From: Propionicimonas paludicola
Lineage (GTDB): Bacteria; Actinomycetota; Actinomycetes; Propionibacteriales; Propionibacteriaceae
Assembly: GCF_002563675.1 (NCBI RefSeq)
Contig: NZ_PDJC01000001.1
Location: 1,178,001 to 1,242,000, forward strand
Direction: 5' to 3'
DNA length: 64,000 nt
Under the pieces are notes generated by a model that was given only the letters and a program-made list of their open reading frames with translations, did not search any database and was not told where the DNA came from. Positions within the stretch are counted from its first letter, which is position 1. Each line of letters starts with the position of its first letter. This document shows, piece after piece, positions 21,259-32,297 of the stretch. The position numbers were made by a program, and so were the translations under genes.

Positions 21259-22017
21259 CTAGACCCGCCGCAGGACAGCAACCACCTTGCCCAGAATGGA
21301 CGCCTCATTGCCGTCGATCGGTGAGTAGGCCGGGTTGTGGGGCAGCAGCCACACCTGACCGGGAGTGCGCTTGAAAGTCTTCACCGTGGCCTCGTCACCG
21401 AGCAGCGCGGCAACGATGTCGCCATTGGTGGCATCGGGCTGCTGGCGGACCACCACGTAGTCGCCGTCGCAGATGGCAGCCTCGATCATCGAATCGCCCT
21501 TGACCTCGAGCAGGAACAGGTTTCCTTCGCCGACCAGCTGCTTGGGCAGGGTGAAGACGTCCTCGACGGCCTGCTCGGCCAGGATCGGACCGCCGGCCGC
21601 GATCCGGCCCAGGATCGGCGCGGTCACCGATGGGGCAGTGGGGGCCGGCTCGTCCGGTTCGATGACCCGCAACTGCTCGCCGGGGCTGATCGAGGACGGC
21701 AGCCGCACCTCAAGGGCGCGCGGACGATGCGGGTCACGGAACAGGAAGCCCTTGGCCTGCAGCACCTTCAACTGGTGGGCGGCCGAGGACGAACTGGCCA
21801 GCCCGACCCGGTCGGCGATCTCGCGAATGCTCGGCGGGTAGCCACGCTCGGCAAGCTCGTCCCGGATCACTTCCAGGATCCTCCGCTGTCGGGGGGTGAG
21901 CCCTTCGGCATCCACCGGGCCGTCGGGCAACTGGGACACCTTGGTGCCCAGCTGGGCGGCGATGTCCTCTTTGCGTGGCCGACCTCGCTTGCGGTCGGAG
22001 GTTGGGGTAGCTGCCAT
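21259..22017 (-). CDS. lexA: SOS repressor LexA
   Basis: 252 residues. The winged helix lies at about 41-106 ([25 protein letters not shown]). The self-cleavage site is A141-G142 and the catalytic pair is S176 (GDSM) and K213 (TVKTF). The N-terminal 35 residues are a basic, RGRPRK-containing extension typical of Actinobacteria. RecA filaments stimulate cleavage, relieving repression. The promoter carries a LexA box with one mismatch, so the gene is autoregulated. The ATG is six bases after the -10, giving a leaderless mRNA. Confidence 0.98.
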
Positions 22018-22023
22018 GCCTCG

Positions 22024-22063
22024 AAACTATCGGCTGCGCGGTCGCGAATCAAACATATGTTCG
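22024..22063 (-). promoter_or_regulatory. lexA promoter with LexA box
   Basis: On the minus strand: -35 TTGATT (22052-22047), 17-base spacer, -10 TAGTTT (22029-22024), then six bases and the lexA ATG. The SOS box CAAACATATGTTCG (22050-22063, plus-strand reading) overlaps the -35; it differs from the perfect palindrome by one base, which would make autorepression slightly weaker than at the neighbouring boxes. Confidence 0.85.
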
Positions 22064-22141
22064 AGCGTGTCTGGGGCTGATCCGGCCGGTCCGAAAAGTG
22101 TCAGAGCCGGGCAGCAGGATCAGTATCAGCCCGACACGCTA

Positions 22142-22155
22142 CGAACAAATGTTCG
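22142..22155 (+). promoter_or_regulatory. LexA box 1 of the small SOS gene
   Basis: CGAACAAATGTTCG has perfect CGAAC/GTTCG arms. It sits 7 bases upstream of a -35 TTGCAT, between lexA and the small membrane-protein gene at 22227. Confidence 0.85.
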
Positions 22156-22162
22156 ATAAGGC

Positions 22163-22191
22163 TTGCATCTGACGGCGCGGGGCACTAGAAC
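22163..22191 (+). promoter_or_regulatory. Promoter of the small SOS membrane-protein gene
   Basis: -35 TTGCAT (22163-22168), 17-base spacer, -10 TAGAAC (22186-22191). The expected start site is near 22198, inside LexA box 2, leaving a leader of about 29 bases with a strong ribosome site. Confidence 0.6.
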
Positions 22192-22196
22192 AGTAT

Positions 22197-22210
22197 CGAA
22201 CACACGTTCG
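22197..22210 (+). promoter_or_regulatory. LexA box 2 of the small SOS gene
   Basis: CGAACACACGTTCG has perfect arms and covers the predicted transcription start. With box 1, LexA would bracket the promoter, implying tight repression of the gene at 22227. Confidence 0.86.
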
Positions 22211-22226
22211 AGGAAAGGGGCAGGCG

Positions 22227-22511
22227 ATGAGCGCTCTAGCGATCACCGAGGCAGTGGACACCACGTGGGCCGAGGTTCCGAGTGTATGTCCGGCCGCGGA
22301 GCTCCGCCTGGTCCCGGCGGCGCCGTCCGTCCCGTCCGCGGGGGCGTCCGGCTGGCAGTTGACCGAGCGCGGCATCGCCGTGGCGGTGATCGGCTCGCTG
22401 ATGGTGTTCCTGACCGGCTTGGTCGTGCTGGTCGGCGCCTTCCTTGCCGTCCCGGATCGGCCGCTCGACGGCACTTCCGCTGCCGCCGCCTCGATCTCGG
22501 TGCAGCAGTGA
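22227..22511 (+). CDS. Small SOS-regulated single-pass membrane protein, candidate division inhibitor
   Basis: 94 residues: about 49 N-terminal residues predicted cytoplasmic, one membrane helix (about 50-74, from GIAVAVIGSLMVFLTGLVV), and a 20-residue tail ending SISVQQ. AGGAAAGGGG precedes the ATG. Two perfect LexA boxes flank its promoter. It lies between lexA and nrdR, exactly where mycobacteria carry Rv2719c (chiZ) and Corynebacterium carries divS, SOS inhibitors of division. Those proteins have a LysM domain after the helix; here the ORF stops about where it would begin and no LysM remnant follows in any frame I checked. Function is inferred from position and regulation only. Confidence 0.85.
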   Translation: MSALAITEAVDTTWAEVPSVCPAAELRLVPAAPSVPSAGASGWQLTERGIAVAVIGSLMVFLTGLVVLVGAFLAVPDRPLDGTSAAAASISVQQ

Positions 22512-22639: not shown

Positions 22640-22686
22640 TGTGGTTTGTCCACAAATTGTGGTTCTTACTCCACAGTTCGTCCACA
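22640..22686. promoter_or_regulatory. Cluster of TGTGG/CCACA half-sites before nrdR (DnaA-box-like or NrdR operator)
   Basis: TGTGG occurs at 22640 and 22658, CCACA at 22650, 22671 and 22682. The 9-mer TTGTCCACA at 22646-22654 equals the high-GC DnaA box; TACTCCACA (22667) and TCGTCCACA (22678) have two and one mismatches, at offsets of 21 and 11 bases, whole helical turns. The half-sites also form inverted repeats such as CCACAA-A-TTGTGG (22650-22662), the sort of palindrome NrdR binds. Which protein binds cannot be settled from sequence. Confidence 0.5.
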
Positions 22687-22725
22687 TCCCCATCCACCGC
22701 CGCCACGACTGAGAAGGAGCGCCGG

Positions 22726-23184
22726 ATGCACTGCCCGTTCTGCCGGCACACCGACACCCGAGTCCTCGATTCCCGCGTAGCCGAGGACGGCACCAGCATT
22801 CGCCGTCGTCGGCAGTGCCCGCTCTGCGAGCGCCGGTTCACGACGCTTGAGCAGATGCAGCTGGTCGTGGTCAAGCGCTCGGGAGTGGTCGAGCCCTTCT
22901 CCCGCGAGAAGGTGATCACCGGAGTCGCGAAGGCCTGCAAGGGCCGTCCGGTTTCGGAGAGCGATCTGGCTCGCCTCGGCCAACGGGTCGAAGAGACGCT
23001 GCGCGCGTCCGGGCAAGCCGAGATTCCGGCCGACGAGGTCGGCCTGACCATCTTGGGCCCGCTGAGCGAGCTGGATCCGGTGGCGTACCTGCGGTTCGCC
23101 AGCGTGTACAAGCACTACGACACGGTCGAAGACTTCGAGACCGAGATCGACAACCTGCGCCGGGCGGCGCTGGTCACCAACTGA
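22726..23184 (+). CDS. nrdR: Transcriptional repressor NrdR
   Basis: 152 residues from the ATG at 22726 (MHCPFC), preceded by GAGAAGGAGC; the longer open frame begins in the operator region. The zinc ribbon is CPFC...CPLC (C3, C6, C31, C34) and an ATP-cone follows ([16 protein letters not shown] onward). NrdR senses ATP/dATP and represses ribonucleotide reductase genes. nrdJ begins 44 bases downstream, and the leader holds the candidate operators. Confidence 0.97.
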
Positions 23185-32240: not shown

Positions 32241-32297
32241 GTTCGGGACAAGCTGACTTTTCCGAACAATCGTTCGGCAATGCCTTATAATGTGGTC
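32241..32297 (+). promoter_or_regulatory. LysR-gene promoter with CCGAAC/GTTCGG palindrome (LexA-box-like)
   Basis: TATAAT (32286-32291), a perfect -10, ends six bases before the LysR ATG at 32298. In the -35 zone, CCGAAC-AATC-GTTCGG (32262-32277) is a perfect 6-bp-arm palindrome whose core CGAACAATCGTTCG fits the SOS box CGAAC-N4-GTTCG. A third half-site GTTCGG at 32241 is 31 bases upstream, three helical turns. Either LexA or the LysR protein itself may bind. Confidence 0.65.

Follow-up and report, generated by a model that had tools for sequence, protein, structure and literature searches.

A candidate LysM-less SOS division inhibitor beside lexA in Propionicimonas paludicola and its family

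From our analysis of a 64,000-nucleotide stretch of the Propionicimonas paludicola genome (hereafter the window), a gene for a 94-residue single-pass membrane protein is likely to be the occupant of the lexA-adjacent slot for an SOS division inhibitor. Judged from its sequence and those of its relatives, it would descend from an inhibitor of the ChiZ/Rv2719c kind, which joins a transmembrane helix to a LysM domain, and would serve as a brake on the late divisome that does without LysM. The gene is conserved and is not a LysM gene broken by a frameshift. The novelty, so far as our searches go, is a derivative without LysM that spans a whole family and stems from a LysM-bearing lineage. The features of the locus are as follows (window coordinates).

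21259 to 22017, minus strand: lexA (open reading frame list; TIGR00498 match)
22049 to 22064, no strand: third LexA-like site TCAAACATATGTTCGA, upstream of lexA by 31 nt, with one mismatch against the 16-mer
22142 to 22155, no strand: LexA box 1, CGAACAAATGTTCG, perfect 14-base core, one spacer change in the nearest relative
22163 to 22191, plus strand: possible promoter TTGCAT-17-TAGAAC between the boxes, found by eye, both hexamers identical in the nearest relative
22197 to 22210, no strand: LexA box 2, CGAACACACGTTCG, perfect 14-base core, its end 16 nt upstream of the start codon
22212 to 22220, plus strand: ribosome-binding site GGAAAGGGG, read from sequence, identical in the nearest relative
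22227 to 22511, plus strand: open reading frame of the 94-residue single-pass membrane protein, proposed LysM-less SOS division inhibitor (ORF call; relatives in the genus; dN 0.26 and dS 1.17 against the nearest relative)
22227 to 22358, plus strand: codons 1-44, short and probably disordered N-terminus (low pLDDT), presumably cytoplasmic, 2 basic residues before the helix
22359 to 22373, plus strand: LTERG juxtamembrane motif, residues 45-49, common to LysM-bearing slot proteins
22365 to 22445, plus strand: predicted transmembrane helix, residues 47-73 (AlphaFold2; hydropathy)
22440 to 22466, plus strand: FLAVPDRPL, residues 72-80, conserved membrane-proximal segment (alignment), presumably extracellular
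22467 to 22508, plus strand: variable tail ending in SISVQQ, at the point where LysM starts in LysM forms (pair comparison; tail lengths)
22726 to 23184, plus strand: nrdR (TIGR00244 match; start read from sequence)

The gene, its LexA boxes and its conservation

The open reading frame is divergent from lexA and lies inside the lexA-nrdR interval, as expected of the ChiZ/Rv2719c kind, and its translation ends in ...ASISVQQ*. A pattern scan placed perfect CGAACNNNNGTTCG cores at 22142 and 22197 ahead of it, which bears out the first-pass annotation's account of a 94-residue single-helix ORF (22227-22511) between lexA and nrdR with two perfect LexA boxes. A LexA box in the promoter region, as in the ChiZ/Rv2719c kind, is thus predicted from the sequence; against the 16-mer TCGAACNNNNGTTCGA, box 1 has one mismatch and box 2 none. 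Sites with up to two mismatches number 10 in the window (shuffled mean 2.3), a count that none of 100 shuffles attained. Across the single-contig genome of 3.26 Mb, perfect cores occur 14 times and the reversed pattern 4 times, which indicates that two perfect cores 55 bp apart right before one start codon are not a product of chance. Three other perfect-core sites stand before genes that we read by eye as recA, ruvC and imuA', and it is therefore very probable that this motif serves as the organism's SOS box; beside several of the remaining sites no SOS gene was evident on the same reading. A further perfect core is present at window positions 32263-32276; an ORF resembling a LysR-type regulator begins 17 nt past its first base.

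That the promoter is bracketed by the two boxes, as had been proposed, is plausible from the TTGCAT-17-TAGAAC pair seen by eye but is a weaker part of the proposal, since no promoter ahead of the ORF reached the threshold of the consensus scan. The nearest relative (G028) retains the start codon, the ribosome site, both boxes at their 55-bp spacing and the hexamer pair. Among the 58 family genes having 200 nt of upstream sequence, a perfect box was found within that distance in 42 and a box with at most one mismatch in 52. These counts are to be read with a choice of method in mind: wherever a box was visible, the start codon was placed at the first ATG following the last box, and this makes boxes inside the counted region more likely. 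For the same genes the reversed pattern gave 0 and 2, and the 200 nt downstream of the stop codon gave 0 and 0. Ahead of nrdR (window 22640-22690) we also noticed TTTGTCCACAAATTGTGG and more TCCACA repeats, mostly kept between P. paludicola and G028, which to our eye resemble NrdR-type palindromes or DnaA boxes (TTGTCCACA).

Over 89 aligned codons, the window gene and its counterpart in G028 differ with dN 0.26 and dS 1.17 (dN/dS ∼0.22). The N-terminus (42 codons; 0.17/1.17, ∼0.15) and the region from LTxRG through the helix (33 codons; 0.20/0.71) are constrained, and the tail is unconstrained and saturated with changes in this pair. With an E cut-off of 1, the protein search had matches in 58 of 60 related genomes, the weak matches being mostly meaningless, and the mean column identity across the family alignment is 12%. 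The open frame is nevertheless retained in 28 genera of Propionibacteriaceae. An ORF arising by chance is ruled out by the relatives, by the dN/dS ratio and by the boxes upstream of the gene in relatives; the check on conservation that accompanied the initial proposal was thus run, and the proposal withstood it.

AlphaFold2, run with 10 aligned sequences, gave one confident helix at residues 47-73, low-confidence ends and a mean pLDDT of 66, and the predicted layout of a disordered N-terminus and a single transmembrane helix is that of the ChiZ/Rv2719c kind. Arginine and lysine residues before the helix number 2 in the window protein, 4 in the nearest relative and 9-11 in several congeners. 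The best 20 relatives of the protein search share LTxRG, the helix and a short tail; FL(A/S)(V/I) is found in the genus members, and most start with MSA. LTxRG is absent in three genus members (G011, G013 and G016) and in some genera. In two genera (g4 and g19; L047, L126, L214 and L215), the proteins have in common a divergent N-terminus with GPW...(D/N)R and no LTxRG before the helix, which may represent a separate sub-lineage or a replacement.

LysM within and outside Propionibacteriaceae

We located nrdR in 145 of 147 family genomes (29 genera) and lexA in 22 chosen genomes, and fetched part of the neighbourhoods. Together with the loci from the protein search, the sample comprises 83 family genomes, in 62 of which, from 28 of the 29 genera, a slot transmembrane ORF was tabulated. 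These 62 proteins and 38 outgroup proteins were chosen by hand from hydropathy listings, one per genome, and are not a random sample; some have a cut or misplaced N-terminus (e.g., L126, L128, L129). Pfam found LysM in none of the 62 family proteins. A home-made LysM profile was run over all six frames of each gene together with 100 nt before it and 700 nt after it, and gave no match in the 62 genomes (best E 0.35). Scans of the entire loci of these and 21 further family genomes likewise gave none, the slot being out of reach in four of the 21. The profile was trained on outgroup proteins, the 31 outgroup proteins that it matches being the training set itself, and it does match LysM in 20 outgroup loci outside that set. 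Non-tabulated family loci without LysM are G003, G007, G009, G015, G085, G102, G116, G117, G119, G131, G133, G142, G146, G159, G170 and G172 (sixteen); G062 and G096 stop at a contig end, the slot lies beyond reach in G121 and G123, and G074 yielded no candidate for the slot gene.

In the P. paludicola genome, LysM was found in one long frame only (G000:3104797-3105168), ∼78 kb from the nearest perfect LexA box. The window protein thus has no extracellular LysM domain, which sets it apart from the ChiZ/Rv2719c kind. A frameshifted or relocated LysM is ruled out by the scans of the 62 genes and the 21 further loci; this was the refutation foreseen in the first-pass annotation, and the scans came back empty. 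The locus, the boxes and these scans together uphold its central description of an SOS-box-controlled single-helix protein at the divS/Rv2719c position without LysM. Pfam and NCBIfam gave scattered weak matches on the 62 proteins, none of them common to more than two members.

Two further features of the interval were seen. In several genera (L033, L036, L048, L054, L118, L122, L133 and others), a second membrane protein with a TGWxCPxCGxTRxG-like motif, which we take to be probably DUF2752, is encoded between the slot gene and nrdR. In genus g22 (L129, L130 and L209), the interval is up to ∼2 kb wider and contains low-complexity, coding-like sequence with LAVAGLPV-type repeats.

The outgroup comprised 38 slot proteins of other Actinomycetia from 16 families, and LysM was found in 30 of them by Pfam and in 31 by the home-made profile. 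It is present in 12 of 13 tabulated proteins from three other sampled families of the same order as P. paludicola. The seven outgroup proteins without LysM are L086 (same order), four taken for Corynebacterium (genomes of 2.3-2.9 Mb) and two mycobacterial-family proteins of other genera. Among 63 further outgroup loci scanned whole, 20 had LysM (19 of them in genomes outside the 38) and 43 had none, most of the latter having no lexA in reach and being uninformative. Some of the 43, however, do not fit a simple picture: L149, L151 and L155 have lexA and nrdR, with neither LysM nor a clear transmembrane candidate in the interval. In the Nocardioidaceae-like family f3, a LysM form lies beside lexA in 7 of 9 genomes (L169 has a different ORF and L172 none); no slot gene was seen in G050 of family f4, and the locus taken from G036 of family f2 surrounds a second lexA-like gene, not the right one. 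The extract of the S. venezuelae LexA paper describes Streptomyces as having no clear homologues of known inhibitors (PMC9380542). Slot proteins apparently without LysM in other actinobacterial lineages (L196-L199, L201, L204, L086) suggest that loss of LysM is probably recurrent across these lineages.

Homology to LysM-bearing forms and the junction

Outside LysM, sequence homology to the ChiZ/Rv2719c kind was found against 12 LysM-bearing slot proteins of the same order. A profile built from 14 of the 19 genus members, without five divergent sequences, aligned to these with a probability of 93.6 (E 2.1e-7) over 40 columns spanning LTxRG and the helix, and the reversed-sequence control gave 6.8 (E 5e-3). 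A profile of the other family proteins (38 of 43, restricted to those containing RG) gave 87.9 (E 3.2e-6). The link of profile A3 to all 38 outgroup proteins is weaker (70.8, E 3.8e-5), and none was found to the five mycobacterial-family LysM forms alone (0.6) or to the four Corynebacterium-like slot proteins (1.6, only four sequences). On this profile evidence, the LysM-less proteins and the LysM-bearing slot proteins of the same order are one protein family. One relative, G146, carries LTRRGR, the exact motif of LysM forms, followed by a stop after SNAPLP.

We then compared the distance from LTxRG to the end of the LysM-less proteins with the distance to the start of LysM, the motif being measurable in 44 of 62 LysM-less proteins (at least one, L140, anchored on a wrong motif) and in 26 of 31 LysM forms (five lack it). 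The G of G[DEQ]TL follows LTxRG by 45-53 residues in 24 of the 26 measured LysM forms, the other two (L067 and L077) being mis-anchored. In the 44 LysM-less proteins the C-terminal end follows at 33-63 residues (median 49), with 26 ending within 45-53, 13 earlier and 5 later. The window protein ends at 50, in agreement with the first-pass remark that it ends in SISVQQ where LysM would begin. Nine of the 44 tails, six of them from one genus, end in hydrophobic-x-hydrophobic-Q (e.g., SISVQQ, TVLVQP, AVSVQP, VTMQG), comparable to VxVQP in the first LysM strand, VVVQPGETLW; when the last 20 residues were shuffled, the mean was 0.94 and nine was reached in 0 of 2000 trials. Because the window protein and 26 of the 44 relatives end at the LysM start point, a single loss of LysM at its junction, in the family's ancestor, is probable. 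The simplest history that the tails suggest is one junction loss, after which the tail eroded in many genera.

Known inhibitors and the proposed function

The window protein shares with ChiZ/Rv2719c and the LysM-bearing slot proteins of Actinomycetia its place beside lexA (often before nrdR), LexA boxes and an N-terminal region followed by one transmembrane helix. LTxRG is common to it and the LysM forms outside the mycobacterial family, whereas mycobacterial-family LysM forms lack the motif. It differs from ChiZ/Rv2719c in having no LysM, a short tail and a short, weakly charged N-terminus, that of ChiZ being arginine-rich. With only two basic residues before the helix of so short a segment, this species is unlikely to have an N-terminus that works through charge as in ChiZ. 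SosA belongs to Staphylococcus, a genus of another phylum.

The published inhibitors are taken here as described in extracts of the cited papers. In ChiZ, the disordered N-terminus and the transmembrane helix are reported sufficient for filamentation (PMC7355643) and LysM is called unnecessary (PMC3989709). YneA of Bacillus is an SOS-induced single-helix inhibitor encoded near lexA (PMC13396833, PMC3989709); its helix docks on FtsW TM7, LysM is then needed to stop septal synthesis, and the transmembrane segment alone reaches the septum without inhibiting (PMC13396833). By this description YneA differs from the window protein, which has no LysM. AlphaFold 3 models place ChiZ and SosA on FtsW TM7 as well, though not with high confidence according to their authors (PMC13396833). 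DivS is SOS-induced, adjoins lexA and has a single transmembrane helix (PMC6851548, PMC3989709); it lacks LysM (PMC6851548), and it resembles the window protein in this absence, in the single helix and in the lexA neighbour. SosA, also without LysM, has a single helix, an extracellular C-terminus and lexA as neighbour; its membrane-proximal extracellular segment is essential, and no clear homology to known Gram-positive inhibitors is described for it in that extract (PMC6851548). By description it resembles the window protein in the single helix, the lack of LysM, the C-terminus (presumably extracellular in the window protein) and the lexA neighbour. A conserved FLxVxxxPL segment lies near the membrane in the window protein and its relatives and may correspond to the segment of SosA. 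SosA differs in that its N-terminus is short and its extracellular part longer (PMC6851548).

LysM-less SOS division inhibitors are thus already known as a kind (DivS, SosA), and the earlier suggestion of a distinct, undescribed type was too strong; the gene is better described as a LysM-less derivative of a known kind. The accompanying statement that divS carries a LysM domain was wrong by the extract of PMC6851548, and the four Corynebacterium-like slot proteins also lack the domain. Similarity to DivS was gauged through these four proteins and not DivS itself, and none was detectable (probability 1.6); the loss of LysM in them looks independent. In the extracts of open-licence literature that we searched, no published account of such an inhibitor in Propionibacteriaceae was found.

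In the proposed mechanism, LexA would repress the 94-residue gene and DNA damage would induce its product, which would insert with its N-terminus inside and its C-terminus outside. The helix and its flanks (LTxRG inside, FLxVxxxPL outside) would bind to proteins of the late divisome, the FtsW/FtsI/FtsQ group being the likeliest, and the bound protein would hold septal wall synthesis until repair, with no LysM clamp on new glycan. LysM-free action of this sort would call for an N-terminus that is disordered, a helix whose flanks are conserved and a conserved segment close to the membrane, and the protein has each of these by prediction or alignment; we therefore infer a damage-induced brake on the late divisome, acting within or at the membrane. 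By analogy with the transmembrane segment of YneA, which in the extract reaches the septum without inhibiting (PMC13396833), the LysM-less form might only localise, without inhibiting.

Small SOS-induced membrane peptides with other roles exist, such as TisB of E. coli, which depolarises the membrane, and the slot protein could likewise act in depolarisation or as an envelope-stress adaptor off the divisome. Neither Pfam nor NCBIfam recognises a family here, and the divisome as target is our inference; we still hold such a role to be unlikely, given the profile link to LysM-bearing slot proteins, the same lexA-adjacent place and a 44-residue hydrophilic N-terminus unlike that of TisB. More improbable again is a decaying remnant, that is, a non-functional or purely vestigial peptide left after LysM was lost. 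The fast-changing sequence (12% identity), the variable tail and the missing candidate in G074 would fit such decay, but not the open frame in 28 genera, the box with at most one mismatch at 52 of 58 genes or the low dN/dS in the nearest pair (∼0.22 overall, 0.15 in the N-terminus). That the ORF or the loss of LysM is a sequencing error or frameshift in the source genome has a negligible chance: the shortness of the protein and its end close to a LysM-like start would fit, but LysM appeared in any of the six frames around the gene in 0 of 62 genomes (best E 0.35) and in none of the loci of 21 more, and the idea is already refuted unless all assemblies share the same error.

The LysM-less late-divisome brake remains our preferred reading of the slot gene. 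A bolder version of it, which we advance tentatively and consider somewhat doubtful, is that LysM was cut at its first strand in the Propionibacteriaceae ancestor, that the helix with its short flank on either side then came to inhibit the FtsW/FtsI synthase by itself, and that this switch is recurrent, LysM having been lost independently in Corynebacterium-like lineages. If true, the same ancestral protein went from clamping new glycan, as the model for YneA has it, to working solely within the membrane. In the extracts cited, the need of SOS division inhibitors for LysM is disputed, the domain being essential in YneA (PMC13396833), dispensable in ChiZ (PMC3989709, PMC7355643) and absent from DivS and SosA (PMC6851548). 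A family that keeps the gene, the LexA boxes and the helix, and is without LysM at one junction, is a natural experiment, and it offers a natural test of the 2026 claim, as given in the extract, that YneA needs LysM (PMC13396833). In essence, these genes provide candidate checkpoint proteins for Propionibacteriaceae, for which the extracts of the literature searched gave none described, and the lexA-adjacent slot is worth reading even where it holds no recognised domain.
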